Assembly: GCA_949361645.1 (NCBI GenBank)
Contig: OX442415.1
Coordinates: 6,612,899 to 6,676,898, forward strand
Direction: 5' to 3'
Length of the DNA: 64,000 nucleotides
DNA from: Spongilla lacustris
Taxonomy: Eukaryota > Porifera > Demospongiae > Spongillida > Spongillidae
A model generated the notes under the pieces. It made no database searches, was not told the origin of the DNA, and was given only the letters and a program-made list of their open reading frames with translations. A program made the position numbers and the translations under genes. Position 1 is the stretch's first letter. The number at the start of each line of letters is the position of its first letter. Shown here one piece after another: positions 19,640-37,412 of the stretch.

Positions 19640-21262
19640 AAACATTGGCAATTTTTCAAGGTTTAAAAAAATTGAAAAATTTCAATGTACATTTGGAATT
19701 TAAATGTACATTTGGATGGAAGATATTACTAGAAAAACAATTGCATGAGTAAATCCCTGATTTGAATATAATGATACAATGAAAAATTGAAGGAAAAAGC
19801 AACTGTATGACAGCGTATAGGAAATTCTCGAATGGCGGACCCATGCAGGGCTCACCCCATGGTCTCCTCTGCCACTCCACTGCATGCACTGCCCTAGCAA
19901 CTGCATGCACCACACCCTCACCCCCTTACCCCAGGGCTAAGGAGTCATGCTAATATTCTTTCACATGTCATCTATTGTGAATAAAAAAAACCTATGCGAA
20001 TAGGTGGATGTATGTATGTTTGTGTGTGCCATGTCCCACAGATACATTGTATGTTGCTGAAGGGTGTACTGCTCACCTGTGGTATGTTGTCCCTCTCTTT
20101 CTCTCTTCTCTCCTATCCACCTCCTCTAGCTTTTTCCTTCCCAGATAATAACATGCAGATCTCAATTTTGACATTTTAGTTGTCTTCATGCAATCCATAA
20201 TATATAGGCCATACACAATTCTAGGTGGAGCTACTTGCGTAAACAAAAGCTGCATGAGTAACTCTGACTGCAGATTGATTGTGCGAATTCCAACAGAATT
20301 GCATCAATTGTCAAGCTTAGCAGTAAAAAGGATTGATAACATAGGCCCGTAGCCAGGGGGGTGCAAACAGATGCAATTGCACCCCCCCCCCCCCCCCCCC
20401 CCCCCACTGGATGCAAGGTCGTAAACGAGCGCATATAAGAGCACTGGTATGGAATCAAGTCAGGGCTGTAGCAGCCGGTCAGGCATTTGGGCTATGGCTC
20501 GACCCTATTTGCCTGAGGTCCACCTCGAAAAAGGATATCCTGATAAAATTGTGTGCATATATCCAGGCCTGAATATTGAAACAATGAAATTTCAATATGG
20601 CGGAAATGCACATTTGCAATTTTAATTTACATTTGGATTGATTCAAAAATTGAGATATTACTAGAAAAACGCGGTCAAAATCGAGTAAATCCCTGAATTG
20701 AATATGACGATACAAAGAAAAAAAAAAACTATAGGAAATTCTCCAATGGCGGAAATATACACGGACCCACACAGGGCCCAACCCATGGTCTCCTCTGCCG
20801 CTCCACTGCATGCACTGCCCTAGCAACTGCATGCACCACACCCTCACCCCCTTACCCCAGGGCTAAGGAGTCATGCTATTATCAAGTTCTTTCACATGTC
20901 ATCTATTGTGAATTTTCTGCCTCATCCTCATGAGGCAGAATAGGTGGGTGTACATGTGTATGTATGTTTGTGTGTGCCATGCATGTCCTACAGATATGTT
21001 GCTGAAGGGTGTACTGCTCATCTGTGGGATGTTGTCCCTCTCTTTCTCTCTTCTCTCCTATCTTCTGCCTCTTCTACCTTCCCAGATAATAACAGATCTC
21101 AATTTTGACATTTTAGTTGTCTTCGGGCCATACACAGTTCTAGGCGGAACTACTTGCATAAACAAAAGGTGCATGAATATCTCTGACTGCAGATTGATTG
21201 CGGGAATTCCAACAGAAATGCATCAATTGTCAAGCGCAGCAGTAAAAAGGATTGATAACAAA
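19640..21262 (+). repeat. Direct duplication of about 0.7 kb (19640-20340 and 20575-21262)
   Basis: Both halves carry, in order, ACTGCATGCACTGCCCTAGC, GCTAAGGAGTCATGCTA, GTATGTTTGTGTGTGCCATG, TTGCTGAAGGGTGTACTGCT and CAGCAGTAAAAAGGATTGAT-like blocks (TTAGCAGT in the first half). A CCGTAGCCAGG repeat with a poly-C run separates them. Small indels distinguish the copies. Confidence 0.8.
20382..20405. repeat. Poly-C run, 24 nt
   Basis: It lies in a CCCGTAGCCAGGGGGGTGCA repeat that matches the flanks of the poly-G run at 4363. Confidence 0.95.
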
Positions 21263-21889
21263 TCATGAACTTCCTTTAAAGGGTTTATTCCTACAACAGT
21301 AGCCCCCATGCAGTGATTAAGATTTCTATACTGCATTCTTATAGTTACTGTCATAAATGCATGCAGTAGAAAACATTGCCGCTGCATGGGGTTCTTGTTG
21401 CCCTATAGAAAGGAAGTTCAATTTGTTATGATGAATTAATTGTACTTCACTCACAGCTGATAAAAAATGATGCAGATAAATTTTATGTGTCACTCAAAAA
21501 AAAAAAACAAGTGCCAATATTAATAAGGGAAGTACAATCGTGACTGCGTTGATCACTATTAAAAGTATGCCGTCATTAGAATACATAAGGATAAATATGA
21601 TGTAACGTAAATAAAATTTTTCACGAGTTAGGAATAAATCCAACAGATACGCCCCAAGGTTTACGCCCTTTGCATGCCAAAAATAATATGCATGACTTAT
21701 GCCAAAATATTATACGGTGCATTCTTCTACACAAATCGTCGTAGTCATCCATCAGAGCTATATATCCTGGGTCGGCTGCTTCTAAATTAACGTCCTGAAT
21801 TGAACTGTATAGGGCCTGTGTCAGTTGTATAGGAGTGGCTTCGCGTCCTCTAGCCAAATCATCCTCTTTTCTCCCCCAACCACAGTGGG

Positions 21890-22620
21890 TCAGAAGTGTT
21901 GTCCCCTTGTTTGTGCACCCTTACCACATGCTCTGGGCATTGGATAAAGTTTGCTATTATGATCATGTTATCCAGAGTATACTTAGGTTTCTAGCTGGGG
22001 ACTCGACCCAAGGCCATCTCTCCCAGTGGATCACAAGGTATAGTAGTGACTCTAGCAGAAGGTCATTTAGAAGTGTTGTCCCCTTGTTTGTGCACCCTTA
22101 CCACATGCTCTGGGCATTGGAAAAGTTAGAAACCTAACTGTCTGGTTAAAACATGAGTACCAAACTTTACCCAATACCCAGAGAATGTAGTAAGGGTGCA
22201 CACATTCACAAGGGGACAACACTTTTGAATGACTTTCTGCTAGGGCCACTATACTATCCCATGTGATCCATTGGCAGAGTTGAGTCAAGTCCCCAGCTTA
22301 CTGCTAGAAATTCGAGCAGTAAGCTGGGGACTCGACTCATCACATGAGATTGTAGATAGTAGTGACCCTATAACAGAAAGTCATGATCATTCTGAAGTGT
22401 TGTCCCCTTGTTTGTGCACCCTTAAAACATGCTCTGGGCACTGTGAAAGATTTGGTACGCGTGTTAACCAGAAAGTTAGGTTTCTAGCTGGGGACTCGAG
22501 TCACTCGACTCATCTCTGCCAGTGGATAGTAGTGACTCTAGCAGAAAGTCATTCAAATATGTTGTCCCCTTGTTTGCACACCCTTAGCTCATGCTCTGGG
22601 CATTGGGTAAAGTTTGGTAG
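21890..22620. repeat. Degenerate repeats of TGTTGTCCCCTTGTTTGTGC
   Basis: A block with GTTGTCCCCTTGTTTG, ACCACATGCTCTGGGCATTGG and GGGGACTCGA recurs near 21897, 22072, 22397 and 22558, with one inverted copy at about 22160-22260. Confidence 0.7.
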
Positions 22621-22699
22621 CATATCTTGCAGGGCTGGCGAAAGCCTTTAAGGATTGGACCGGTGAGGGGGCGGAAAAAGCTCCTCCATTGGGCTGGGG

Positions 22700-23984
22700 T
22701 CTGGGGCCCAAGCCACTTTTTAAGTCATAGAACCTAGCATAATTGCATAGAAATATGGTTGAAAGTAAATACAGGGCTTTAGTATGAAAGGCAAAGTGGT
22801 CCAGCTAATGCATAAGATGGAATTCACTGCAAAATAACCCAAAATTTGGTCCGAGGTGTCGACTACATGTACATAGTGTAAACCAAATTATTAAACTGTT
22901 TCATGGTTTTATGTGCACATACACACTACATTGGTTTAAGGTTAAATTACTGGTTAAGTAGTATGAGAATTAGAGCAACCCTGCCAGTGCATCAACACAA
23001 GTCATGTGTGATGTGCACATGCACGTTTATTGGAAACAGGCAAAGCTAGGCTTAAGGATTCAAAACCAGCCTTAAGGCATTCAATCTCATCATACCTATA
23101 TAAATTCGCATCAAATAGGTGTTTACATTTATTTGGGACATGAGTCACGTGACCAATTTGAGGCATTTTATTTGCATGGGACCTACCTGAAACGTTATGT
23201 ACCAATCAGTGACCATGGACGTACTGTACTTGTGGCTGTGCATGCATGTAGCTTTGCTATTTGCTCTTCTACTTGAACATGCATTCAAACTCACCAACCC
23301 ATTCAAGAGTTGTGTCAATATAGACCAAAGTATTTTGTTTGGGACATGACCACGTACCTTTGAAACGTTATACCAATTTGTGTTTATGTAGCTTTAAAAC
23401 ATTATACCAATCTCTGACCATGTATGTAGCTTTGATACATTATACCGATTTGTGGGCATGTAGCTTTGCAATTTGCTCTTCTTCATGAACATGGCTTCAG
23501 TTTGTCTTGTAAGAAGTCCTTTCTTGCCGCGAAATATTCGTTCTTCCTGGCCACACTGAACTGTGCTGCTGCAGTGGCTGCTCTAATTCACAGATTTTGA
23601 GGTGTCATGTCCTAAACTGTTGGCAGGATTCATACGATTTGGCATACACACCTCACATGCACGATGAATTTATCAAACTGATAACTTAAAAATAACTTAT
23701 ACTCTGACCAAAAACCAGTATACGGCTTATAGGCCCTGAAATACGACATGTTTTTACGGCCTCGATGACAATATGATGTTACTGATCAATCGGATGCTAA
23801 CAAATTTAAACTGATGCTGGGTCTCGTTGATACTAATCAAGAAGCTTTCTAAAATGCATGCACGTAGCAAAGTGCCAAATTGTAATGCAACCATGGGTAT
23901 CTATACGTGTAAGACACCAATCTTACTTCGCTACAAAATACCCACCGCTTTGAAAAGGCAAATTCCATGGGGGGATCATCACTG
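22700..23984. other. No gene recognised
   Basis: AT-rich DNA with a few short direct repeats around GTAGCTTTG...CATTATACCAAT (about 23340-23470). No exon or element end is supported. Confidence 0.4.
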
Positions 23985-25336
23985 CAGGCGCTGATCCAGG
24001 AATTTAGGAGGAGGGGTGGCTGGACCCGGGGTGGTAAAAGGGGGTGGGTGCGTGAGGGGGATGTGCCCCCTTCCGCGCGGAGCGCGGAAGTTTTTTTACT
24101 GGCGGTAGATACCTTATGCATGAAAAAGTGTTTTCTTTAGGACAGGTGCACTCATCGTATCAGATTTTTCACTGAGTTCATTTTGCCTGCTTTCCGTCAA
24201 AGATGTTGAAGTGCAACTCCTTATTGCACTTTTTCGTAAAATACTCAAAGGCTACCAGTTACTTGTGTATCCTACGAGTCCGAATCTATGGATGATGATG
24301 CCGATACAGATTCTGATCTGGGAGCAGTATACATGTATATCTCAATCAGCATCTAAATGACGGGTGTAAAACCTCCTCGGCTGAACATCCTAACACTGAT
24401 CATGCAGACATGAGAAGAAGTCGGAGGAATAGGATCTTGCTCAGGATGTCTGTACAAGATACGATCTGACAGTCAAGAACATTAAATGATAATGAAAGAT
24501 ATCAGTACTGATATCTGAGCATAACAGGCTTGCAGATACTGTTTTTAATTTTAAAATACAGTATGATTTAGTGTCGCTGGAGTAAGGAAAAGGAAACAGA
24601 CTAAATTTCAGAGACGTTGACTTGAAGATTATAAATGGCTCTAAATATGAAGGATGTCTCAAGAAGGTATCAATACTATGCATGCACCATCAACTGATCG
24701 TAAATGAGAATCTATATCTTGGAATATTTTTCATGTAATTTCTCGGACCTACATGTATTATGGTTTGTAAATGGTGAGTACACAAAAGCACCTAAACTGC
24801 ATGCTCCTTTCGCTTTGAGACAAAAACTAAATGCATGGCAGGCACCAAGCAATGCAAAGAATTTCAGATTGAATTTTGAAGTTTTTCTTATTTAGGAGTA
24901 TCATTCATTCACTCAAATGCACCATAGAAAGTTGAGTAGTGAATCAGTGTTGTACACATGTATGAGTAAATCACAAATTTCATATGATGTTCTTGTGTAA
25001 ATGATTTACATATTTGGTAACTTAGTATTATCATGCAGCTTAAAGATGTGCACTGGCAACTATATGCTTACATTGATTTTTCTTTTGTGCCATGTACTAG
25101 TCACAATTATTATGTATGTATCAAAATAAACATCTGATCACACAAAAAAAAAAAAACAAAGCGTCGTCATCTTTTTTTTCACCCCTAAATGGAAGCTGTT
25201 GAATAGTAAAGCTATTAATAGTTCTCAATCAGTATATTAAAGTATTCGTAAATAATTATTTGAAAAGGGGGTGGGTGGGGGGGGGGGGGGGGGGGGGGGC
25301 TAGCCACCCTATCGACCCTCTCTGGATCAGCCCCTG
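23985..25336. mobile_element. 1.35-kb element with CAGG(C/G)GCTGATCCAG inverted ends
   Basis: The left end CAGGCGCTGATCCAGGA and the right end (read inward) CAGGGGCTGATCCAGAGAGG are inverted repeats, and GGGTGGCT follows within about 30 bp on both sides. A 23-nt poly-G run lies just inside the right end. The interior has no intact frame, so the element is non-autonomous. CAG-type ends suggest a hAT-like source, but no 8-bp duplication is visible. Confidence 0.6.
25277..25299. repeat. Poly-G run, 23 nt
   Basis: An uninterrupted G run inside the right end of the 1.35-kb element. Confidence 0.95.
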
Positions 25337-26100
25337 GGATAAAACTTTTGGGAACGTTTACAGCCAATGATCAGTTACAATAAATATATTCAATAGTATT
25401 GCATGCAGCTGCCATGAATAGAACGGTATTGCAGCTACATTACTAAGCTACTAGACTCAGAGTAGACTATCAGGACTCACGGTAGTGGGTTCTATGTGGG
25501 ATTGGCTTCGTGGGCGTGGTTTTCGATCGAGCGTTTTAAAATGAAAATGAAGCGTTGCCTTTATTCGCCAGCTCACATATAATCCATCACAAACATGACA
25601 GATATGCATATATAACGTGAGCTTCGCTAAACAGTGCCGTTTACTTGGAGTGACGAGTCGGTACCAAAATTTCGCCATTTAATTTGTGTTTATCTCCGTC
25701 TTCCGTAGGAACGTCGTAAGAAGACGAGATTAGCTTCAAAAAGTAGCATTTTATTTCCAAACGTACCCTATCATACAAATAAGGCCTACAGTTGTTAGCT
25801 GGTGATGAAATGCCGTGAAATGACACAAGCAGGTGCAATTCTCGGCCGTTGCCTATAGCAGTAGTCGTCACACACGTTACTGTTGCCTGGCTATGCGCAA
25901 CGTATACGCAGCTGCAGACACGTGACCATGGAGGCAAGCCAAAAAAAACGGCTCGTTAACAAGGAGAACTCTGAGTTTAAGACTATAGGTAGGCCTATCA
26001 ATAAAATTAAAGAGAGGCCTATATATACTCAGATTTAATACCCGATACTGATACGAGCGTCCTATGCATTGCAACGAATGCAATAAGCCATATATTATAT
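25337..26100. other. No gene recognised
   Basis: Overlapping minus-strand frames of 73-98 codons are present but show no motif or splice logic. Confidence 0.35.
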
Positions 26101-26125
26101 TGAGTGAACACTCCTTGCAAAGAAA

Positions 26126-26350
26126 AAAAAATTAGGGGAACAAGTAAATCAAAACCTTCTCTATCGAGAAAGTGATTGGTGGGATGTAGAATTTAGGGTC
26201 AACTATCGATAAGGTTTTGAGCTTAGCGGTAATTATCAGTAAGTAAACACCTACTATCGAATATGTACTGAAATTACTCTAAGCCTGTCGATAAAAAACT
26301 TACCGATAAGCTTTCTTACTGAACGGTAATGATTACCGCTAAGGTATATA
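26126..26350. repeat. Copy of a dispersed element, uninterrupted by the 36846 MITE
   Basis: The sequence with AGTAAATCAAAACCTTCTCT, GTGATTGGTGGGATGTAG and GGGTCAACTATCGATAAGG is also found, inverted and split by a 201-bp foldback element, at 36720-37110. Confidence 0.65.
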
Positions 26351-28019
26351 GGCGTGTCCAAAGGGTATATCTGTTGGCATCTTATTATCATTTGGCATCC
26401 GTGATCCAGTAGGTTGTGGCCTTCCTTATTAGTTCCTTGCATGCATTCCTTCATAACCTGCAAGGTTATTGATGGGTTCTCAAGTGTTGTGTGCGGACTA
26501 TTAATGGTCCCTGGTCCAACCTACCCATTTAATTTCGCACTTTGGTTGGCCTTCGCGATCGATGGCCAATAATCTCCTTTGGAATAGCCTGATATTTTGC
26601 AAGAAAATTGCAATGGCAACTTGATGATATGGACCCTGGATTTTTGTGATGACAAAGCGTTTAGCCTGTGGTGTTTCTTATCTAGTAGTTCAGGGATGTA
26701 GCACTGATTATATGGGAGTGATCCGGCGAATTTAACTATTTCAATTCATAGCACAATTTAAACAATGAACTGTCATAGCAAAATCACAAATTAAAACCGA
26801 GAAAACAACCCTGCCCGATGTTGTGAACCTTTTACAAAGTCATTATATGAATCCTTAGGGTCAAGTTTGTCTGTCCTTTCTTTGTGAACATTTTAAGTAT
26901 TAATAAATGATTAAGCCGTTTCTGAGACATTTTTGTCCTGCGATATGTTTTAACCTGTCTAGAAGTACTAAATGATATTTCTGAGGTTGCATTTTGTTTC
27001 TGGCATTACTAAAACAATTTGAAATACCTTTTTCACTTCACATACATGTAAGGGCCTGCTGAAAAATAAACCCAAACGTGATGAGTTGTGCCCCAAGTAG
27101 ACCATGCATTGTTTAAATCATCATCAAATTTTTTATATGTATTATTTAAATCTAATTGCAATCCTATATAATTTATATATACAAATACTGGCTCCGATCT
27201 TATTTTATTCAGTAATACGTTTTAAAAGCTTGCAGGCCTCAATACAAGTATGGCAGAATACTGCGTCTTTTTCCTAATCGTAATATAAAAAAGGCCACTT
27301 AGCAAACAATTGGGGCTGGAAGCTTCTCTGTTCTACCTTTTTGATGCCAAAGAACGCTTCGAACTTGAAGCCTAATAGATGGTGAGGTCGATTGGATACA
27401 TTGCCTCAGCTCAGAACAGCTCGTAGAACAATTTGCCATATCGGGTCGAAGCAAATGACAATATTACAGAATCTGAGATGACAGGAATCAGAAATCGGTT
27501 CAATCATAGATTAATAACGTTGGTTCAAACTGACAGCGTTCTAAATGACGTCACGGGCACTCACAAAACAATAGTTACTTATCTAGTGACTCCGCCTTTT
27601 TAGATCACTCATCATTGATCAGCGATTCACTTGCACTTGCACTCGCAATGACCTGCCTGGTTGTTATACCACTATAGTAAAATGAAACAGACGCACATTT
27701 AAAAGAAACAGTGCAGAGGGACAAGTGGTCCGGTGAAAGCCGGACTTGCCGGACCTATCCCTACGTCCTGTAGCCATATAAGTTCAGTGGCGTAGGAACT
27801 GTAGCGGCCGTGTCCGCTACACTTTTCTGCTGATCTTTTAATTTGATATAAACGATTCCCACGTATTTAACAGTTCAAGTTACATGCGCTCTGGACCCGG
27901 GTATATCTTATATACATGTGTCGCGTTTTCATTAAGGCATCATTGCAGTTAAGGCAAATGCGCGCACCTCACTAATATTCTTGTATGAATATGATTTGTG
28001 GTTTGTACATGAATACAAT

Positions 28020-28980
28020 ATTGCTGTTCACGTACCGACAGGTCGTTGCCGTTAGGGACTGAACGCTGTAATTTAAGTTACATAATAACGCCTTATAGCA
28101 TTTGTGTACCGTAGTGGCCACAGAAAATCATAAGTACCAAACGATGTCCAACATCCAAACGAAGGGAAAATGGTCCGTGCACTGCAGTAAGTTTAAACAA
28201 TCACGGCCACAGAGCCCCCAGTTGAGTAATGCTTAGCCACAACGACCTAATCAACTCGTTTAGAAAATAAGAACACTACAATTGCAATTTTAATTTTGTA
28301 TATAAGCGCCAATTTTTGGCAGTGCCTTTCCCGGCACAACTAACGTGTCACATCAATGGTATGCAAAAACTCTTTCGCATGTAACACAAGTTGTATTCAC
28401 CATTTCATATAATGCCATGAATGCAGTTATATTTCTATGACGTACTGACATGACAATAGTTAGCCACTAGAATGTAAATCCTTAAAACCAAAACATGTTC
28501 GAAGCCAACTTAATTTAAATAAAGTGAGGAAACAGAAACTATACATGTATTGTGTTTTATCAGCGCCATAGTAAATACGTATGTGTTACATTCTAGTGGA
28601 CATTAGCCTATTACTGACATTATATGTGTTGCAGTGCCAAACTGATATTTTAGGCACTGCCATGCACACATATGTAATGGCCATACAACTACGTTTACAC
28701 CAAGTCATTAAATAACCACAGCAGCGAACGAAAAGGTGGACTGCCTTTGATAACCGCGTTGTTCCTACTTAATCACAATATTTTAAACGCTTCAATTTCC
28801 GCATATTCATCGTTATATGCCATGCAAGTGAAGTAGCCCGGCGAGAAGATATAGTAATTTATTTAGGTATTGAATAGCGTTGATTGTAGGTCAGGATGGT
28901 ACAAAATTAACTATATTTGTGTTGGTTCCTTAACGACAACATACTATACATCTGCATGCATGGTCGTTGTAGTTAAGGAG
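28020..28980. repeat. Scattered single copies of the CCTTAACNACAACGAC motif
   Basis: Related motifs at about 28040, 28240 and 28925-28976 precede the tandem array. The last is a hairpin, TTCCTTAACGACAACAT paired with GGTCGTTGTAGTTAAGGA. These look like precursors or outliers of the satellite. Confidence 0.6.
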
Positions 28981-29519
28981 AAAACAGCAACCATTACTGA
29001 AAAAAATCACAAACTAATTGGGCGCGTGGAATGAATTGCTATTCAAATGTACGTGTATACGGTGCCTTAACCACATCACAACTCTTTAATACACACACAA
29101 AGAAATTAAGTGAAGATTAAAAAAAAAAACAACTTATTTCAAGTCGTTGTCATTGGGGGTATGTTTGGCATCAGCACTTTGATAATGGTATTGTTATACA
29201 CTTAGCGTATAACATTGTGTATAGGGACGTCATTGTGTATATACGTGTGTATAACGTCCCAATACGCAGATACGCAGTGTTATATACGTACACTGCTAAT
29301 TATTGTTGTACAATAGTGTATAACAGCCCTTTTTACACAGTGCAGAACCAAACGATGTAATATTTTCAAACACTTCAATTTTGTATATAAATTTGGTAAT
29401 ATCTAACCCTTCACGACAAGGACCTGAATTAAACAAGGGGGTTATGATAACTTTCTCTGCGAGTGTAATAGCTGTTGCATCAATGTCGCTATAAGGTGGC
29501 TCCATGCACGCGCCTCATT

Positions 29520-30952
29520 CAATGAAGTGTTAATTCCTTAACCACAACGACCGGTTGTCGTTAAGGAATCGTGAAGTGTTCCTTAACCACAACGACCCGA
29601 ATTTATTCGGTTGTCGTTAAGGAACTATGAAGTGTTCCTTAACCACATGCAACGATCGGAATTATTCGGTTGTCGTTAAGGTATCATGAAGTGTTCCTTA
29701 ACCACAACGACCGGAATTATTCGGTTGTCGTTAAGGAACCATGAAGTGACCGGAATTATTCGGTTGTCGTTAAGGAATCATGAAGTGTTCCTTAACCACA
29801 ACGACCGGAATTGTTCCGTTGTCATTAAGGAACCATGAAGTGACCCGGAGTTATTTGGTTGTCGTTAAGGAATCATGAAGAATTGTTCAGTTGTCGTTAA
29901 GGAATCATGAGGTATTACTTAACCACAACGACCGGAATTGTTCGGTTGTCGTTAAGGAACCATGAAGTGTTCCTTAACCACAACGACCGGAATTGTTGGG
30001 TTGCCCGTTAAGGAACTATGAAGTGTTCCTTAACCACAACGACCGAAATTGTTCGGTTGTAGTTAAGAAACCATGAAGTGTTCCTTAACCACAACGACCG
30101 GAATTGCTCGGTTGTCGTTAAGGAACCATGAAGTGTTCCTTAACCACAACGAACGGAATTGTGCGGTTGTCGTTAAGGAACCATGAAGTGTTCCTTAACC
30201 ACAAGGACCGAAATTGTTCGGTTGTCGTTAAGGAACCATGAAGTGTTCCTTAATCACAACGAACGGAATTGTTCGGTTGTTGTTAAGGAACCATGAAGTG
30301 TTCCTTAACCACAACGACCGGAATTATTCGGTTGTCGTTAAGGAACCATGAAGTGTTCCTTAATCACAACGAACGGAATTGTTCGGTTGTTGTTAAGGAA
30401 CCATGAAGTGTTCCTTAACCACAACGACCGGAATTATTCGGTTGTCGTTAAGGAACCATGAAGTGTTCCTTAACCACAACGAACGGAATTATTCGGTTGT
30501 CGTTAAGGAACCATGAAGTGTTCCTTAATCACAACGAACGGAATTGTTCGGTTGTTGTTAAGGAACCATGAAGTGTTCCTTAACCACAACGACCGGAATT
30601 ATTCGGTTGTCGTTAAGGAACCATGAAGTGTTCCTTAACCACAACGAACGGAATTGTTCGGTTGTTGTTAAGGAACCATGAAGTGTTCCTTAACCACAAC
30701 GACCGGAATTATTCGGTTGTCGTTAAGGAACCATGAAGTGTTCCTTAACCACAACGAACGGAATTGTTCGGTTGTTGTTAAGGAACCATGAAGTGTTCCT
30801 TAACCACAACGACCGGAATTATTCGGTTGTCGTTAAGGAACCATGAAGTGTTCCTTAACCACAACGAACGGAATTGTTCGGTTGTTGTTAAGGAACCATG
30901 AAGTGTTCCTTAACCACAACGACCGGAATTATTCGGTTGTCGTTAAGGAACA
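29520..30952. repeat. Satellite of about 26 x 55-bp hairpin units
   Basis: Each unit reads CCATGAAGTG, TTCCTTAACCACAACGACCG, GAATTATT, CGGTTGTCGTTAAGGAA. The two long blocks are inverted repeats, so every unit can form a stem-loop with an 8-10-nt loop. The period is 55 bp. From about 30240 on, two unit types (GACCG...GTCG and GAACG...TTGTT) alternate, giving a 110-bp higher-order period. Outer units at the left are more degenerate. Confidence 0.95.
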
Positions 30953-30999
30953 ATGCAACACAAACTGGCGTAGTACTTAATACTTTGATGATAAATCTT

Positions 31000-31858
31000 G
31001 ATACATGTATACTACCACAAATAATGGCCTTAACTTTTAACTTCATACGCAAGCTAATAAAATGGAAGGAATACATGCACGGTGGCTTACCACATCGAAT
31101 CGATTTATAAGGGAAGGAGCTAGCTAGCTATAGTATATTAACAGGTATAGAAATATATATTCATTTCTCCGTATTGAATAAGAAAATCATAAGCCCTATA
31201 TAATCTATCAGCCGTTCCAGACCATATCTAGGCTGAAAGCTATTCTCATAGAAAGGGCCGACTAGTTCTGAATGAAAAGTTTATGTACAGGTCATAAAAG
31301 TTAAACGGCATGCAGCTGTACCAGCTGCAGTGTGATAAGCGGACTGCTTTACTGTGCAGCATGATAATGCACTTTGTAGAGCTTATTTATGTAACATATA
31401 TGTCAAAGCAAATGTGAGAAAGCTGTCTGCAAATGGAGTGACTGTTTGTCGAAATGAAATATAAAATGCATACATGACAGTAAAAACGCACACAACACAT
31501 CAAGCTTTGAACACATTTGCATGAAGTGAAAAACTCATGCACATGTAGGTAGAGATTTATTAAAATAATATTGGGCTGCAGCATCATAAGGTACCCCAAA
31601 GTGCGCAGAAATGAGCATTTAAACAGCATTGAAATCACCATTCTTTTTAAGTGTACTGTTGATTTCATTTGATGTCCTCTCGGTAAAGTCTAAACAGATG
31701 TATAGTGATTTGATTATAAACAGTGAAGTTACTAACCTATTGAGGCTATTGAAGATGTAGCATCAGACTCTAGAAGTATAGATTTCAATGTGCCCTTGAA
31801 TGGAACAACTTGTTTGTAAGTTGCCTGCATGACCACACCATACGGTTTATGCACATAC
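31000..31858. other. AT-rich flank between satellite and protease exon
   Basis: The donor at 31858 implies a further 3' exon of the minus-strand gene in this stretch or beyond. I could not identify it. Confidence 0.35.
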
Positions 31859-32788
31859 CTTTTCAATTTCCCATCCATTAATTATCAAGCTAAAGATTCC
31901 AAAGTGAGGATCAGTGTACATTGTGAGCAAATACTCCGCAAGTTGTACATGATCAATTACAATGGGCAATGACTTGAGTGAATCAAGCAAATAGATATCT
32001 TTGGGGTCTTTGCAAAACATGGTTATGTAATGAGCTGCACGAGGGACTCTTACCAAATATGATATAGGATATCTGTTGCATGGATTGATTGTGTCTATTA
32101 TATTCACTCTCATGCTTTGCTTATCAAAGAACATTAACACTTCATTTATAACACATGTTGCAATGTCACCACGTTGTTTTACTGCACTCAACAGTACTTC
32201 AATGGAGTACCACCCATTTGCATCTCTTAATGGTGTGTACTGCTCAGTGATTGGCATGTGCATCTGAGTGTAGTGCATAATCCACAATTCATCCCCTAAT
32301 TCATTCAACTTGGCATTGTCAAACACATTTGCTTGGTATGCATTATTTAGTGCGCATAACCCACACAATGCACTGCTACCTTGAATTTGCATAAATATTT
32401 CACTTTTGGCATTACTCAGAGATGCATTACCCTTATGCCCAACTTTGCTTATCACCATTGCAATGTAGGTTACATTGCTAGTTATGTTTTTTCTCTCAAC
32501 ATCTGTCAAATACATCCATTTTTCATCTACCAATGTTCGGGTTGTTTTGCAAACAGTAAGAACTGTATCATGTATGCGTGGAGAAAATGAATATTTGTCT
32601 ATCTCTGTAAGTTTTTTTATCAATGATGTTCTATCTGAAGATGTTACTTTTGGACACTTTTTTCCTGTACCATGGTTTGGGTTTGGAATACTGGAAGCAG
32701 TGAAAACAGATGATTTTTTCCTTGATGCAGATGACACTTGTTGAGATGAACTTATGGATTTTTTTTTTGCTTGCATGTATTGATGCAC
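31859..32788 (-). CDS. Josephin-like cysteine protease domain (C-terminal part of integrase gene)
   Basis: The first roughly 70 residues are Lys/Ser-rich. The rest matches the Josephin deubiquitinase fold of ataxin-3 and JOSD proteins: Gln-containing QGSSALCGLCALNNAYQ with nucleophile Cys142, WYSIEVLLSAVKQRG at 193-207, His253 in AAHYITMF, and Asp269 in YLLDSLKSLP. The Cys, His and Asn/Asp sites are all present in the right order, so the enzyme could be active. The frame continues past 31859 into GTATGT, a good donor, so I end the exon at GAAAAG. A ten-A run near the 5' end (32759-32768) links it by frameshift to the upstream reading frame. Josephin enzymes cleave ubiquitin chains; a role here in stabilising the transposition machinery is speculation. 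Confidence 0.7.
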
Positions 32789-32964
32789 CTTTTAATTTTG
32801 ACTTAAGCTTTGAGCGTTGTTGTTGAGTTGAAGGTTTTCTTGACTTTAAATACAACTTATAAGGTGTACGTATTTTTTTGCCACATGACCTTGGTTTCAC
32901 ATTAACATCATCAGAAACAGATGACAGCAGAGTTTCAACTGCAAGACACTTAAAAGATTTTTTT
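32759..32964 (-). CDS. Linker frame between the Cys-rich and Josephin segments
   Basis: Between a seven-A run (32958-32964) and a ten-A run (32759-32768), both read on the minus strand, the coding frame changes. The segment encodes SFKCLAVETLLSSVSDDVN, then KKIRTPYKLYLKSRK and a KLKSKLK tail. It has the charge and Ser content of a disordered linker. Continuous coding character across both runs suggests that one ancestral frame was broken by homopolymer slippage in the genome or in sequencing. Confidence 0.5.
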
Positions 32965-33447
32965 GGTGTGGGAAGTGAATTTAGGCCATTTTGAAATGTC
33001 CAGTAAATCCAAAGGAGTGTTTTGGCTTGTTTGACTATCAGTGTCATTTTTAGTATGAAGAATTTCTTTCTTTTCAATACTGAAACCTAGGGCATTAGCT
33101 TTTGATATTAGCCAGGCATGACAGCATCTATGATTGCAGTCAGCATGAAAGGAAACACATTCCCAACACATATGATTGTAACCAACAAATGCTGGATTTT
33201 CAGAACTTTGAATGGCATACAGTAAAGGAAGTATGTTGTGTGTTCTTGACAACTGCCAGCAATACAAGGCAGTCATATAATATGCAAACTTCATTTTGGA
33301 AAGAAACTGTATAATAAACTTGTGATGTTTTTTGCATTGTTCTTTTAAGCTGACATTAGTAGTAAGATTCGAAACTATAAAACAATCACAAGCATAGCAA
33401 TACAAGTCAATTAATGTATCTGGGTCCTCTCTATCCTTTAGATCCAT
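32950..33447 (-). CDS. Cys/His-rich segment following the integrase
   Basis: This 165-codon frame begins with ATG directly after the integrase TGA and in the same frame, so a single stop codon separates them. It contains CYACDC, CKKHHKF and CWECVSFHADCNHRCCHAW, paired Cys/His motifs that suggest zinc binding. I do not recognise the family. It could be a separate protein, but adjacency and frame suggest a continuation of the integrase polyprotein by stop readthrough or an ancestral fusion broken by a point mutation. Confidence 0.55.
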   Translation of the reverse strand: MDLKDREDPDTLIDLYCYACDCFIVSNLTTNVSLKEQCKKHHKFIIQFLSKMKFAYYMTALYCWQLSRTHNILPLLYAIQSSENPAFVGYNHMCWECVSFHADCNHRCCHAWLISKANALGFSIEKKEILHTKNDTDSQTSQNTPLDLLDISKWPKFTSHTKKIF

Positions 33448-35151
33448 TCATTTTGTTATATGCAAGATAGAATTCAATGTCAATTCATTTACAACAAGGT
33501 CATCATCATCATTTATATGTAACTTATTTTTAAAATGATGCTGCCGTTCAGTTTCTGCAAACCTTAAAACCTCATCTCGTAATGTTTCAGCAGATACAAG
33601 TGACTTATTGGGTATAACACTTATGAGGTTTAGGGTTTCAGGATACGTAAATGTATATGGAACAATAGTGGAAGAGTGCAAGCGCACTCTACACTCATCA
33701 ACACTCTCATCACATTTGATTTCATAGTATCCTCCTGGCAATTCACTAATAATCTCGCCAACCTGGTTAGGAATAATAACCATGCCATGAATATGTGGAT
33801 TGTGGAATATAACTTTTTCATTGCACTGAAACTTTCTTGGTTGAAATTTCTTCATGTGTGCTTGCTGAGATTTGACTGCTGATTGCTCTGTTGCATTAAA
33901 TATGGAGATTTCAATTTCTCTGCGAACTGCATTGATGGAGCTAAAATGTGATGCAGCTTCAACAACAGATTCCATTGAGCAGCAGTTTGGTACATCAGTA
34001 CAAGTATCATCATCTTCTTCATCATCATCAAACTGATCTGCTCTCGCATCATTTGTAGTTTTTGTTGATTCCTTGTCTTGCACTGTATAAGAGCAATGAT
34101 TTAAAAGCAAAAAATACAAATTGTCATCTGGCCACAGTCCTGATGATGCAGGACCAAAATTTCCTGACTCACGGCCATAAAAAGCAGTGAATGGAACTTC
34201 AGTTATACTTGAATGCCAAGTGTTATTCAAATAGTGAGCTATTTCTGGTAACAACCATGGCCAAACATTACTTTGTTCATCCGGTGAGAAACTGAGCAAT
34301 CTAGCAGCTATAAACCTTTTCACCTTTTGATTTAACCTTTCCACTTGCCCTTGACTCTGTGGATGGTACAGTCGTCCATGAATTATTGTAATACCTATGC
34401 TTGAACAAACAGTGGTAACAACATTTGCTATAAACTCTTTTCCATTGTCTGATTGAATAATTTTCGGACAGCCAAATTCTCGGAAAATTGTGCACAGAGC
34501 TCTGGCTACTTCTATTGCTGTTTTTGTACACAAAGGTATTAGCCAACAATATTTACTAAAACAATCCATAACACTCATTACAAGGCGATAATTGTGGCTA
34601 GACTTGGTACATAAAGGGCTTTTAGGCCCATACATTTGCAATAAGTCAATTTGTATCTTCTCCAAAACATACTTAGTTCTGACTGGCTGAGGTGGTGGAG
34701 ATGCAGTATTTAAACATTTTGTTAACTTGCAAGAACCTGTGCAGCTCCTTAGTGTCTCTGTTATAAGTTTTTGACACCCATTAATGGTATAATGCTGATT
34801 AAATATATGCATCAGTTTTGTAATTCCTAGAGGGAGACATTCCTTTCCCTCTGGCTTATGAATTTTTTGAATAATTTCTCTTGCTTTCTTTTCATGTACA
34901 AACTCTTTGAATAAACAAGATTCTTTAGAGGAACTACTGACCCGAAAGATGGCTTCTTCATTGTCTAAATTCTTCCTAAGGACAAAATTAGGCTTGCATT
35001 TGTTACCATTTGAGTATATAAACTTTTTATCTTGACTTGCAAATGTTTCTACTATTGGTTCTTTATTTGGATTTCCTTGCAGTACCTTCAACAGTAATAG
35101 GTATCGTTCTTCTGTCATGGGGCCTCTGTTATCTGTTGATCTTCTTGTTAC
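33448..35151 (-). CDS. DDE integrase (retroviral-type, KRBA2/Ginger-like)
   Basis: The exon follows GTACTTCAG and joins in phase 0 to the first exon at 35815-35952. Counting from the ATG at 35349, a degenerate His/Cys zinc region (H181, H186, C203, C207) precedes an integrase core with D235 (QIDLLQ), D301 (QSDNGKEF) and E337 (QSQGQVERLN). The last two are exactly 35 residues apart. HPQSQGQVERLNQ is diagnostic of Ty3/retroviral-type integrases and their Ginger and KRBA2 relatives. A C-terminal basic segment (QPRKFQCNEKVIF... to VPYTF) resembles the GPY/F-type module. The enzyme would cut and join element ends to target DNA. No reverse transcriptase or gag is adjacent, so a DNA transposon is likelier than an LTR element. 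The frame is intact to its TGA. Confidence 0.85.
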   Translation of the reverse strand, partial: VTRRSTDNRGPMTEERYLLLLKVLQGNPNKEPIVETFASQDKKFIYSNGNKCKPNFVLRKNLDNEEAIFRVSSSSKESCLFKEFVHEKKAREIIQKIHKPEGKECLPLGITKLMHIFNQHYTINGCQKLITETLRSCTGSCKLTKCLNTASPPPQPVRTKYVLEKIQIDLLQMYGPKSPLCTKSSHNYRLVMSVMDCFSKYCWLIPLCTKTAIEVARALCTIFREFGCPKIIQSDNGKEFIANVVTTVCSSIGITIIHGRLYHPQSQGQVERLNQKVKRFIAARLLSFSPDEQSNVWPWLLPEIAHYLNNTWHSSITEVPFTAFYGRESGNFGPASSGLWPDDNLYFLLLNHCSYTVQDKESTKTTNDARADQFDDDEEDDDTCTDVPNCCSMESVVEAASHFSSINAVRREIEISIFNATEQSAVKSQQAHMKKFQPRKFQCNEKVIFHNPHIHGMVIIPNQVGEIISELPGGYYEIKCDESVDECRVRLHSSTIVPYTFTYPETLNLISVIPNKSLVSAETLRDEVLRFAETERQHHFKNKLHINDDDDLVVNELTLNSILHITK

Positions 35152-35814
35152 CTGAAGTACATGTACATGTTGTATAAGTATATACATGTACATGTATATG
35201 AAACGTGTTATGCGATACTGTGCATCACTATAAATTGAAATTGCAATGCTTGTTTTTAAAATATATATATAAACGACAAAATACCATACGTATACACCCA
35301 TAATTGGGTACACATGTAGCACAGAAAATGATCTTTGCAAGTGCCACATTAAATCCTCAATGAATTAATAGTGATGTGACACCGGCAACTTTTAATATAA
35401 GAATACAACATATTTTTATGTATAGCGACCATACTTATTAGTATCATGCAGTGGCGTGTCCAGCCATGTTTTCCGCGTTGCCCGGAAACGGGGTCACCAT
35501 AAAAAAAAAACAACGTATTATACAAACCCCCCTCCTAAGTCCTGGATACCCCACTAATTATAGAAAGTTCACAGTAGCAGCGGCCAATCCAGGATGGAGT
35601 AAATCCCTTAACCCATTTTCAAATAGGTTTCAGTGAATTAAAATAAATAAATAAAAGATGGGCATTTCGGGCTGAGTCGCTCACCCCAGTGGGGAAGCAT
35701 TACCATGTATTCCCTAGCGACGCAAAAAAGGAACCCTCATCCTCTCCAAAATCCCGGATACGACCTGCACACCCTCGGGGTCACCAAGGTACACAACATG
35801 CACACACAAAAAAC

Positions 35815-35952
35815 CTTTGAGTTCGCGGCACTCTTTTTCTTTTTCCGATCGCACTGCACTTTAACCTGGTTCTTGCCCGTGGAGCAGACATCTAGTACAT
35901 CTTTAGCATCACTCTTTAATTCAGCTTCGTTCTCCTCGTTGTATAAATCCAT
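35815..35952 (-). CDS. First exon of the integrase gene
   Basis: The exon encodes MDLYNEENEAELKSDAKDVL, then DVCSTGKNQVKVQCD and RKKKKSAANSK, 46 codons in phase 0, ending CAAAG|GTTTTT. The acceptor at 35151 also opens in phase 0 (VTRRSTDNRG), so the two exons join without stops. The ATG sits in a fair context (ACGATGG). The acidic then basic composition looks coding. The link rests on splice logic, not on homology. Confidence 0.6.
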
Positions 35953-36394
35953 CGTTTCAACAAAAAAAAAACAGCGCACGTGTGCTGTAACAATGGTTTA
36001 CCACATGTATTGCCATGAATTCATTCAGCCGCCCAATTGCCTTATCTGCAACGCAGCCTTAACGAAAACGTGACAACATGTAAGAGTACAAATATATACA
36101 TTTGTGCAACGTAGAAAAGCTGCAGCTATTGGAGTATTGCGCTAGGCGTAGCAAATCGACGTGCGTTATACAGCTGCCATGTTAAATAGCGGCATTGTGC
36201 GAATTCTGCTCAGGTTCAGCTACATGTACCGAAATTCCAGTAACTGCCAACAGTTTTGTTTCTGCAGCACATTTCTGTCAGCCGATTAAAATATATAGCA
36301 CTTTGATGCATTCAAGCCTGCACTACAGTTTAGTTAATAAAAAGTGATCAAATTTCGTATGGCTTTTGAACATAAAAATCGCACGAATTGCAAA

Positions 36395-37143: not shown

Positions 37144-37412
37144 TGGTCCGGCGGCTGCCGGACCTGCCGGACCGGTGTCGTAGGCATGGTTGTCCCCCCC
37201 CCCGCAAAATGTCCCTCCGGACATTCATGCCTAGGCACCGCTATCCCTCGGACACTGGTTCTTAGGCACCATTTTCCCCCGGACAATTATGCCTAGGCAT
37301 ATACATGTATATGTCCGCAGGGGACCTTTATGCCTAGGCATAATTGTCCGGCCTACCCTAGGCACCAGTGTCCCCCATGGGGGGACACTGGTGCCTAGGA
37401 TAGAATGTCCTA
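37144..37412. repeat. GTCC/CCTAGG array (copy 6)
   Basis: The array opens with CCGGTGTCGTAGGCATGG and continues with GTCCCTCCGGACATTCATGC, CCTAGGCA and similar units to 37412. A palindromic GTGTCCCCCATGGGGGGACAC lies near its end. Confidence 0.8.

Follow-up and report, generated by a model that had tools for sequence, protein, structure and literature searches.

A Josephin-type domain accompanies the retroviral-type integrase of a DNA transposon family in the sponge Spongilla lacustris

Ginger1 DNA transposons, whose transposase is of the retroviral integrase type, have been listed with OTU, Ulp1 and PHD modules, OTU or Ulp1 being the C-terminal protease, and peptidase C19 has also been reported on DNA transposons (PMC2836005). 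Ginger1-1_BF carries neither OTU nor Ulp1 (PMC2836005), so these proteases are not strictly defining for Ginger1. VTD deubiquitinases (DUBs), which in the authors' view spread through transposons, are found in Helitrons (PMC9741609). Here we describe a DNA transposon in a 64,000-nucleotide stretch of the Spongilla lacustris genome (contig OX442415.1; hereafter the window, with positions counted from its first letter), a whole copy of 8157 bp at 27919..36075 on the minus strand, carrying an integrase and a Josephin-type domain. We consider it likely that in this lineage an integrase transposase is fused, through a Cys/His-rich module of the pattern HxCxxC-CxHxCC, to a Josephin domain that would act as a DUB in cis, and that this accessory has been exchanged between the window lineage and Ginger1.

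A literature search, with subscription papers and Repbase outside its reach, found no report joining a Josephin domain to a transposon, and the word Josephin is absent from the text of the Ginger1 paper (PMC2836005). The initial annotation of this locus knew of no transposon class pairing such an integrase with a Josephin protease; it had named Ulp1 as a precedent and left out the OTU of Ginger1 (PMC2836005). As ubiquitin-type proteases on integrase transposases are already known, the Josephin adds a new module to an arrangement of a familiar type; what we did not find described are the Josephin class on a transposon, the HxCxxC-CxHxCC module and the module exchange that the lineages appear to have undergone.

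The Josephin domain and the window gene

The proteins otherwise known to contain Josephin domains are ataxin-3, JOSD and the JOS enzymes of bacteria. In the window the domain occupies about 32404-31886 of an open frame of 314 aa (31850..32791, minus strand), with a PF02099 match of 37.9 bits (E 2.1e-9, curated cut-off 26). Its catalytic residues are Cys143 (within 32371-32354), His254 (within 32035-32024) and Asp270 (within 31990-31976), the same residues that had been proposed as Cys142, His253 and Asp269, shifted by one as the open frame starts one codon earlier. A predicted structure model of the domain shows the Josephin fold, Foldseek aligns it with ataxin-3 and ataxin-3-like structures, and the Josephin entries matched by model comparison carry descriptions as Josephin proteins or as proteins that bind or cleave ubiquitin. 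The window Cys and Asp align with the Cys and Asn of ataxin-3, in the case of the Asp only through a piece below threshold. The triad is complete in all eight fused relatives found in public data, whose integrases share 29-37% identity with the query, and the rate of replacement changes (pN) is well under that of synonymous ones (pS) in comparisons between families. The domain thus shares its fold and a Cys-His-acid triad with the Josephin family (ataxin-3, JOSD1/2, bacterial JOS), and differs from the ataxin-3 family in its identity of 19-23% in the Foldseek alignments and in being fused to an integrase. The lack of a Josephin match, by which the initial annotation could have failed, was looked for and not found, and its assignment of a Josephin-type domain with a Cys/His/Asp triad is borne out.

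A viral or prokaryotic source for the domain was considered and rejected. The Josephin profile (A3) replaced an earlier one (A1) whose matches the integrase dominated; with it 33 stretches of viral contigs and 21 of genome contigs matched a pattern, none of which encodes a relative by tblastn.

The gene lies on the minus strand and is predicted to begin with an exon of 46 codons (35815..35952) ending in a GT donor, followed by a GT-AG intron (35152..35814) whose AG acceptor precedes 35151 and whose removal keeps the frame, in agreement with the first exon proposed earlier. Exon 2 (33451..35151) holds the integrase part and is open up to an in-frame TGA; its frame matches Pfam rve at 45.1 bits (E 1.3e-11, curated cut-off 32.6). 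The DD35E core lies at 34339..34656 (D 34647-34645, D 34449-34447, E 34341-34339), with a spacing of D-66-D-36-E. The match and the spacing uphold the earlier call of a DD35E integrase; its residue numbers D235, D301 and E337 become D215, D281 and E317 in the spliced product. Towards the N-terminus a zinc-finger-like region (34729..34860) reads in alignment as an H-C-C-C variant of H2C2, scoring 12.5 bits against Pfam H2C2 (cut-off 25.5) and 17.3 bits in relative P0014. The C-terminal region (33655..33831) is SH3-like on the evidence of the model of relative P0013, in which strands occur at 436-488 and the alignment with retroviral two-domain integrases reaches about residue 490; in a VIA comparison of full-length P0013, integrases are among the 50 matches listed, one domain filling the list. 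The GPY/F motif is absent from the window-lineage integrase as read in the protein alignment.

Downstream of the TGA (33448..33450) the frame resumes (32950..33447) and holds the HxCxxC-CxHxCC module, HMCWECVSFHADCNHRCC, at 33174-33121 on the minus strand, which is the Cys/His-rich segment noted before. In comparison with copy L014, two frameshifts also part integrase from Josephin, so that, with the TGA as well, the window copy lacks a single frame for the fused protein. L014 carries integrase, Cys/His module and Josephin in a single frame of 1168 codons (rve 49.7 bits, Josephin 37.1 bits), the only unbroken one among the copies of this family scanned.

The element ends in TGTCA...CGACA, with end points common to the genome copies and confirmed by reading termini and flanks; the pattern search recovered only the 5' end, and the 3' end comes from reading and copy comparison. 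Its terminal inverted repeats (TIRs) of 46 bp (5' at 36030..36075 on the minus strand, 3' at 27919..27964 on the plus strand) are imperfect, with 38/46 identical positions, and the termini TGTCA and TGTCG fit TGTNR. A target-site duplication (TSD), CATGT in minus-strand letters, flanks the element at 36076..36080 (5' side) and 27914..27918 (3' side). Among 14 copies of the window family (family 1) inspected, the 5' end was not found in L017 and L021, nor the 3' end in L024, leaving 11 readable at both ends. Six of these have an exact 5-bp TSD (window, L015, L016, L019, L020 and the copy at C5:10.1M), L018 has a 4-bp duplication, GGGC, and four (L014, L022, L023, L026) have none, the 5' flank of L014 being mostly N, and L022 and L023 sharing both flanks and hence looking like one duplicated insertion. 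Integrase core, TIRs and 5-bp duplications together show insertion of the integrase type; excision, that is, a cut-and-paste cycle, would follow from the class to which the element belongs.

The 3' part of the element contains no open frame of at least 150 aa (20000-31000 examined). A 55-bp minisatellite of 25.4 copies lies there (29552..30955); it is palindrome-rich, and its GTTAAGG letters recall the terminal repeat.

Copies, relatives and a second family

A PF02099 profile search of the sponge's own genome gave 22 matches, with all 27 first-look candidates scored; the same profile had no match in 14 control genomes. Thirteen of the 22 belong to family 1, seven to a second family (family 2) and two lie on C20. 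A fourteenth family-1 copy, C5:10.1M, has its Josephin split by a frameshift and was missed by the Pfam count. The two C20 matches concern a host gene (L028, C20:4.127M) with ataxin-3 exons, one of which matches the PDB ataxin-3 entry 2dos at E 3.2e-10; this is the only non-transposon Josephin found in the genome at this sensitivity.

Family-1 integrase sequence accompanies the Josephin in 14/14 copies. Only the last third of the integrase gene is matched in L021 (query 376-567), and in L026 the integrase lies 14 kb from the Josephin, yet between the same two element ends. The integrase search scored the best 77 of 1694 candidates and therefore does not count all integrases. The HxCxxC-CxHxCC motif occurs in 12/13 family-1 loci scanned (the thirteenth is L026, the integrase part of which was outside the scanned locus) and in 0/7 family-2 loci. 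At the position of the stop in the window copy, TGA is found in eight copies (window, L015-L021) and AGA in four (L014, L022, L023, L024); no match was obtained for L026 at this point, and the comparison did not extend to C5:10.1M. The shared TGA is directly followed by an in-frame ATG, and L017 is then open for 532 codons that include the Josephin domain. It is possible that in the TGA copies the gene is split into two products, or that they are mobilised in trans. A 2.1-kb segment, at window position about 31618, is present in L014, L022, L023, L024 and L026 and absent from the TGA copies, the window included; in L014 it has no frame of at least 180 aa.

Used as a query, the integrase and middle region of L014 returned 32 public proteins. 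Eight are marked with rve and Josephin, one with rve and OTU (P0023) and six with rve only (P0010, P0012, P0015, P0016, P0021, P0038); in the other 17, rve goes with retroelement domains. When five of the eight fused relatives were rescanned, P0017 (32.6 bits) and P0018 (38.5 bits) exceeded the Josephin cut-off of 26. The HxCxxC-CxHxCC motif is found in 14/17 proteins checked, being missing in P0010, P0015 and the OTU protein P0023. Searching with the Josephin frame yielded nine proteins, seven of them marked PF02099, and with the Josephin region of P0018 three proteins, P0018 itself included. The pairing recurs in 14 genome copies and 8 public proteins and is thus not a chance one, the co-occurrence that the initial annotation had left to be looked for.

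Family 2 comprises seven copies (L009-L013, L025, L027), about 94-98% alike where aligned. Some 0.6 kb upstream of its Josephin frame sits an integrase that differs from that of the window element and that tblastn picked up in five of the seven copies; the corresponding stretch of L009 and L012 does not align with L010. Predicted to consist of several exons, this integrase has an H2C2 finger above the cut-off (55.8 bits), DDE and GPY/F (GPY motif) by letter reading, and SH3_Tf2-1 (24.9 bits) and rve (18.8 bits) matches on single exons, each below its cut-off. The Josephin scores 45.3 bits, with neither OTU nor Ulp1 present, and takes the protease place. All six 5' ends read (L009 has none within its locus) start with TGTGG and are preceded by CCGG (five) or CCGT (one), and CCGG flanks both sides in the two copies read at both ends. 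Family 2 fits Ginger1 on the points examined: TGTNR ends, CCGG/CCGT duplication, H2C2 and GPY/F. Exact CCGG plus family-2 end sequence occurs at 17 places in the genome, only four of them Josephin copies (L010, L011, L025, L027), and the remaining 13 may hence be non-autonomous derivatives.

The trees of the two domains conflict. In an integrase tree of 33 rows (32 of the 33 rows matching the query core, with P0038 omitted, plus family 2), the window lineage together with the OTU protein P0023 forms a group of 15 rows with support 97/94, and family 2 falls among Gypsy-type rows; an earlier tree without family 2 recovered the same 15 rows at 99/99. The approximately unbiased test rejects both a single clade joining family 2 to the 14 window-type rows (p-AU 0.012) and a sister relation between family 2 and the window copies (p-AU 1e-7). 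The Josephin tree (20 rows) places the window and family-2-like Josephins in one group (99/98) and rejects a clade of the window with P0011/P0013/P0014 (p-AU 0.0004). Movement of a Josephin (or integrase) module from one transposon lineage to another would be expected to give such a conflict, and the Josephin accessory has probably been exchanged between at least two of them, the window lineage and Ginger1. Tree groups were named after the first identities were already known. P0023, an integrase protein on a long branch that bears an OTU and lacks the HxCxxC motif, is placed with the window lineage and not among the Gypsy-type integrases.

Elsewhere in the genome, three loci (L045, L046 and L047; C9:1.32M, C16:1.40M and C5:3.14M) hold the ends of another, related transposon family, whose TGTAGCG termini resemble the TIR of the window element closely. 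An integrase match of 42%, broken by many stops, is found 2 kb from the one at C9:1.32M. Upstream of the window element, 36845-37093 matches L015 in both orientations and resembles a miniature inverted-repeat transposable element, and a 31-bp tandem repeat lies at 37212-37299.

Relation to described transposons

By sequence comparison the window element appears to belong to a lineage related to Ginger1, with which it shares the retroviral-type integrase transposase, TGTNR ends, TIRs, introns and a C-terminal cysteine protease of the ubiquitin/SUMO type (PMC2836005). It differs in its 5-bp TSD, none of the duplications in the 11 copies readable at both ends being CCGG or CCGT, in the absence of GPY/F, in a finger that reads as H-C-C-C, in the extra HxCxxC-CxHxCC module and in having a Josephin, with no OTU or Ulp1 (PMC2836005). 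It was not filed as Ginger1 because of the 5-bp non-CCGG duplications, the missing GPY/F and an H2C2 score under the cut-off, the first two of which rule that class out. Family 2, in contrast, has the ends, duplication, H2C2 and GPY/F of Ginger1, with Josephin replacing OTU/Ulp1 (PMC2836005). Of the initial annotation, a DNA transposon that has the two domains in a single gene is borne out; the element that fits Ginger1 is that of family 2 and not the one in the window.

With Ginger2/Tdd the window element shares TGTNR ends, duplications of 4-5 bp and an integrase without GPY/F, but its 5-bp duplications (CATGT, CATGG, CACAT, CTTGG, AGGGT, CAAGC) do not match the RTATAY target and its H2C2 stays under the cut-off; the sections covered of PMC2836005 mention no C-terminal protease for Ginger2. 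IS3EU/GingerRoot elements have TA..TA ends (occasionally TG..CA in GingerRoot) and a 6-bp duplication (PMC10045372), to which the TG..CA ends and 5-bp duplication of the window element do not conform. A Gypsy long terminal repeat retrotransposon is likewise ruled out, its terminal repeats being direct and those of the element inverted, and no reverse transcriptase appears in Pfam scans of three window frames, with no other frame of at least 150 aa in 20000-31000. The VTD deubiquitinases of Helitrons offer a parallel in that a DUB is carried by a DNA transposon, but they belong to another DUB class and ride on a rolling-circle element (PMC9741609). A bolder version, in which the window lineage would be a superfamily-level group of its own (H-C-C-C finger, no GPY/F, HxCxxC-CxHxCC, 5-bp TSD) with an active Josephin deubiquitinase traded with Ginger1 as a weapon against ubiquitin control of the transposase, seems to us tentative, its chances falling somewhat short of even.

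What the Josephin domain may do

The Josephin domain is predicted to be an active DUB in cis, which would strip ubiquitin from the transposase or from proteins bound up in the complex it forms with DNA, with the outcome that the transposase escapes the proteasome or that the insertion is repaired favourably. Retroviral integrase is prone to ubiquitin-proteasome degradation (PMC10144533), and protection of proteins needed for transposition has been proposed for transposon DUBs (PMC9741609). A cis DUB working on the transposase or its complex is the most likely role. The domain might instead act, where the element inserts, on DNA-repair factors or on the chromatin of the host, ubiquitinated histones for example: Bao et al. 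proposed a DNA-repair role for the OTU and Ulp1 of Ginger1 (PMC2836005), and the integrase fusion seen in L014 would place the Josephin at the insertion complex. This we hold to be rather unlikely; the sequence names no substrate, and nothing separates such a target from self-protection.

That the domain was captured by chance and is a passenger, or is decaying, would suit the spread of copies with a TGA ahead of the Josephin and the single unbroken frame in L014. This is improbable given the intact triad in 8/8 fused proteins with such divergent integrases (29-37% identity), pN well under pS between families, and a Josephin in two different transposon lineages. Processing of a transposon polyprotein, one of the roles first suggested for the protease, could appeal to the shared open frame of integrase and protease in L014, but found no support: the matched Josephin entries concern ubiquitin binding or cleavage, and no further frame of at least 150 aa to be released was seen in 20000-31000 (cleavage sites were not searched for), which makes it very improbable. 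The chance that we are looking at a host ataxin-3/JOSD paralog beside an unrelated integrase relic is close to nil; although ataxin-3 exons do exist on C20, the same pair recurs in 14 copies of the family with shared element ends, in one frame in L014 and in fused public proteins, which rules this out.

Several observations weigh against an active deubiquitinase serving the transposase in cis. In ataxin-3 the third catalytic position is taken by Asn, here by Asp; the single window Josephin sequence found no relative in the PDB, and a six-row Josephin profile matches ataxin-3-like at only E 0.0026. Three fused relatives fall just under the Josephin cut-off of 26 (P0011 25.1, P0014 24.9 and P0022 25.8 bits), P0006 has Gln at the His position, and some close copy pairs differ by replacement changes only (window against L014: 0 synonymous, 2 replacement). 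Five of the eight TGA copies (window, L015, L016, L019, L020) have a clean 5-bp TSD, so the DUB is not required in cis for every jump: these copies may receive it in trans or may do without it. As to the exchange, long branches weaken both trees, as the tree tool warned, and family 2 is itself long-branched in the integrase tree.

The reading of the Josephin as a cis deubiquitinase exchanged between lineages would add a further ubiquitin-protease class to those on DNA transposons, after OTU, Ulp1 and peptidase C19 (PMC2836005) and VTD (PMC9741609). The old remark that transposons need ubiquitin control would become a comparative test, and a module that two integrase lineages of the same genome seem to have exchanged would amount to a natural swap experiment, with a related protease on a different transposase. 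The Josephin family, for its part, would gain a mobile, fast-evolving branch.

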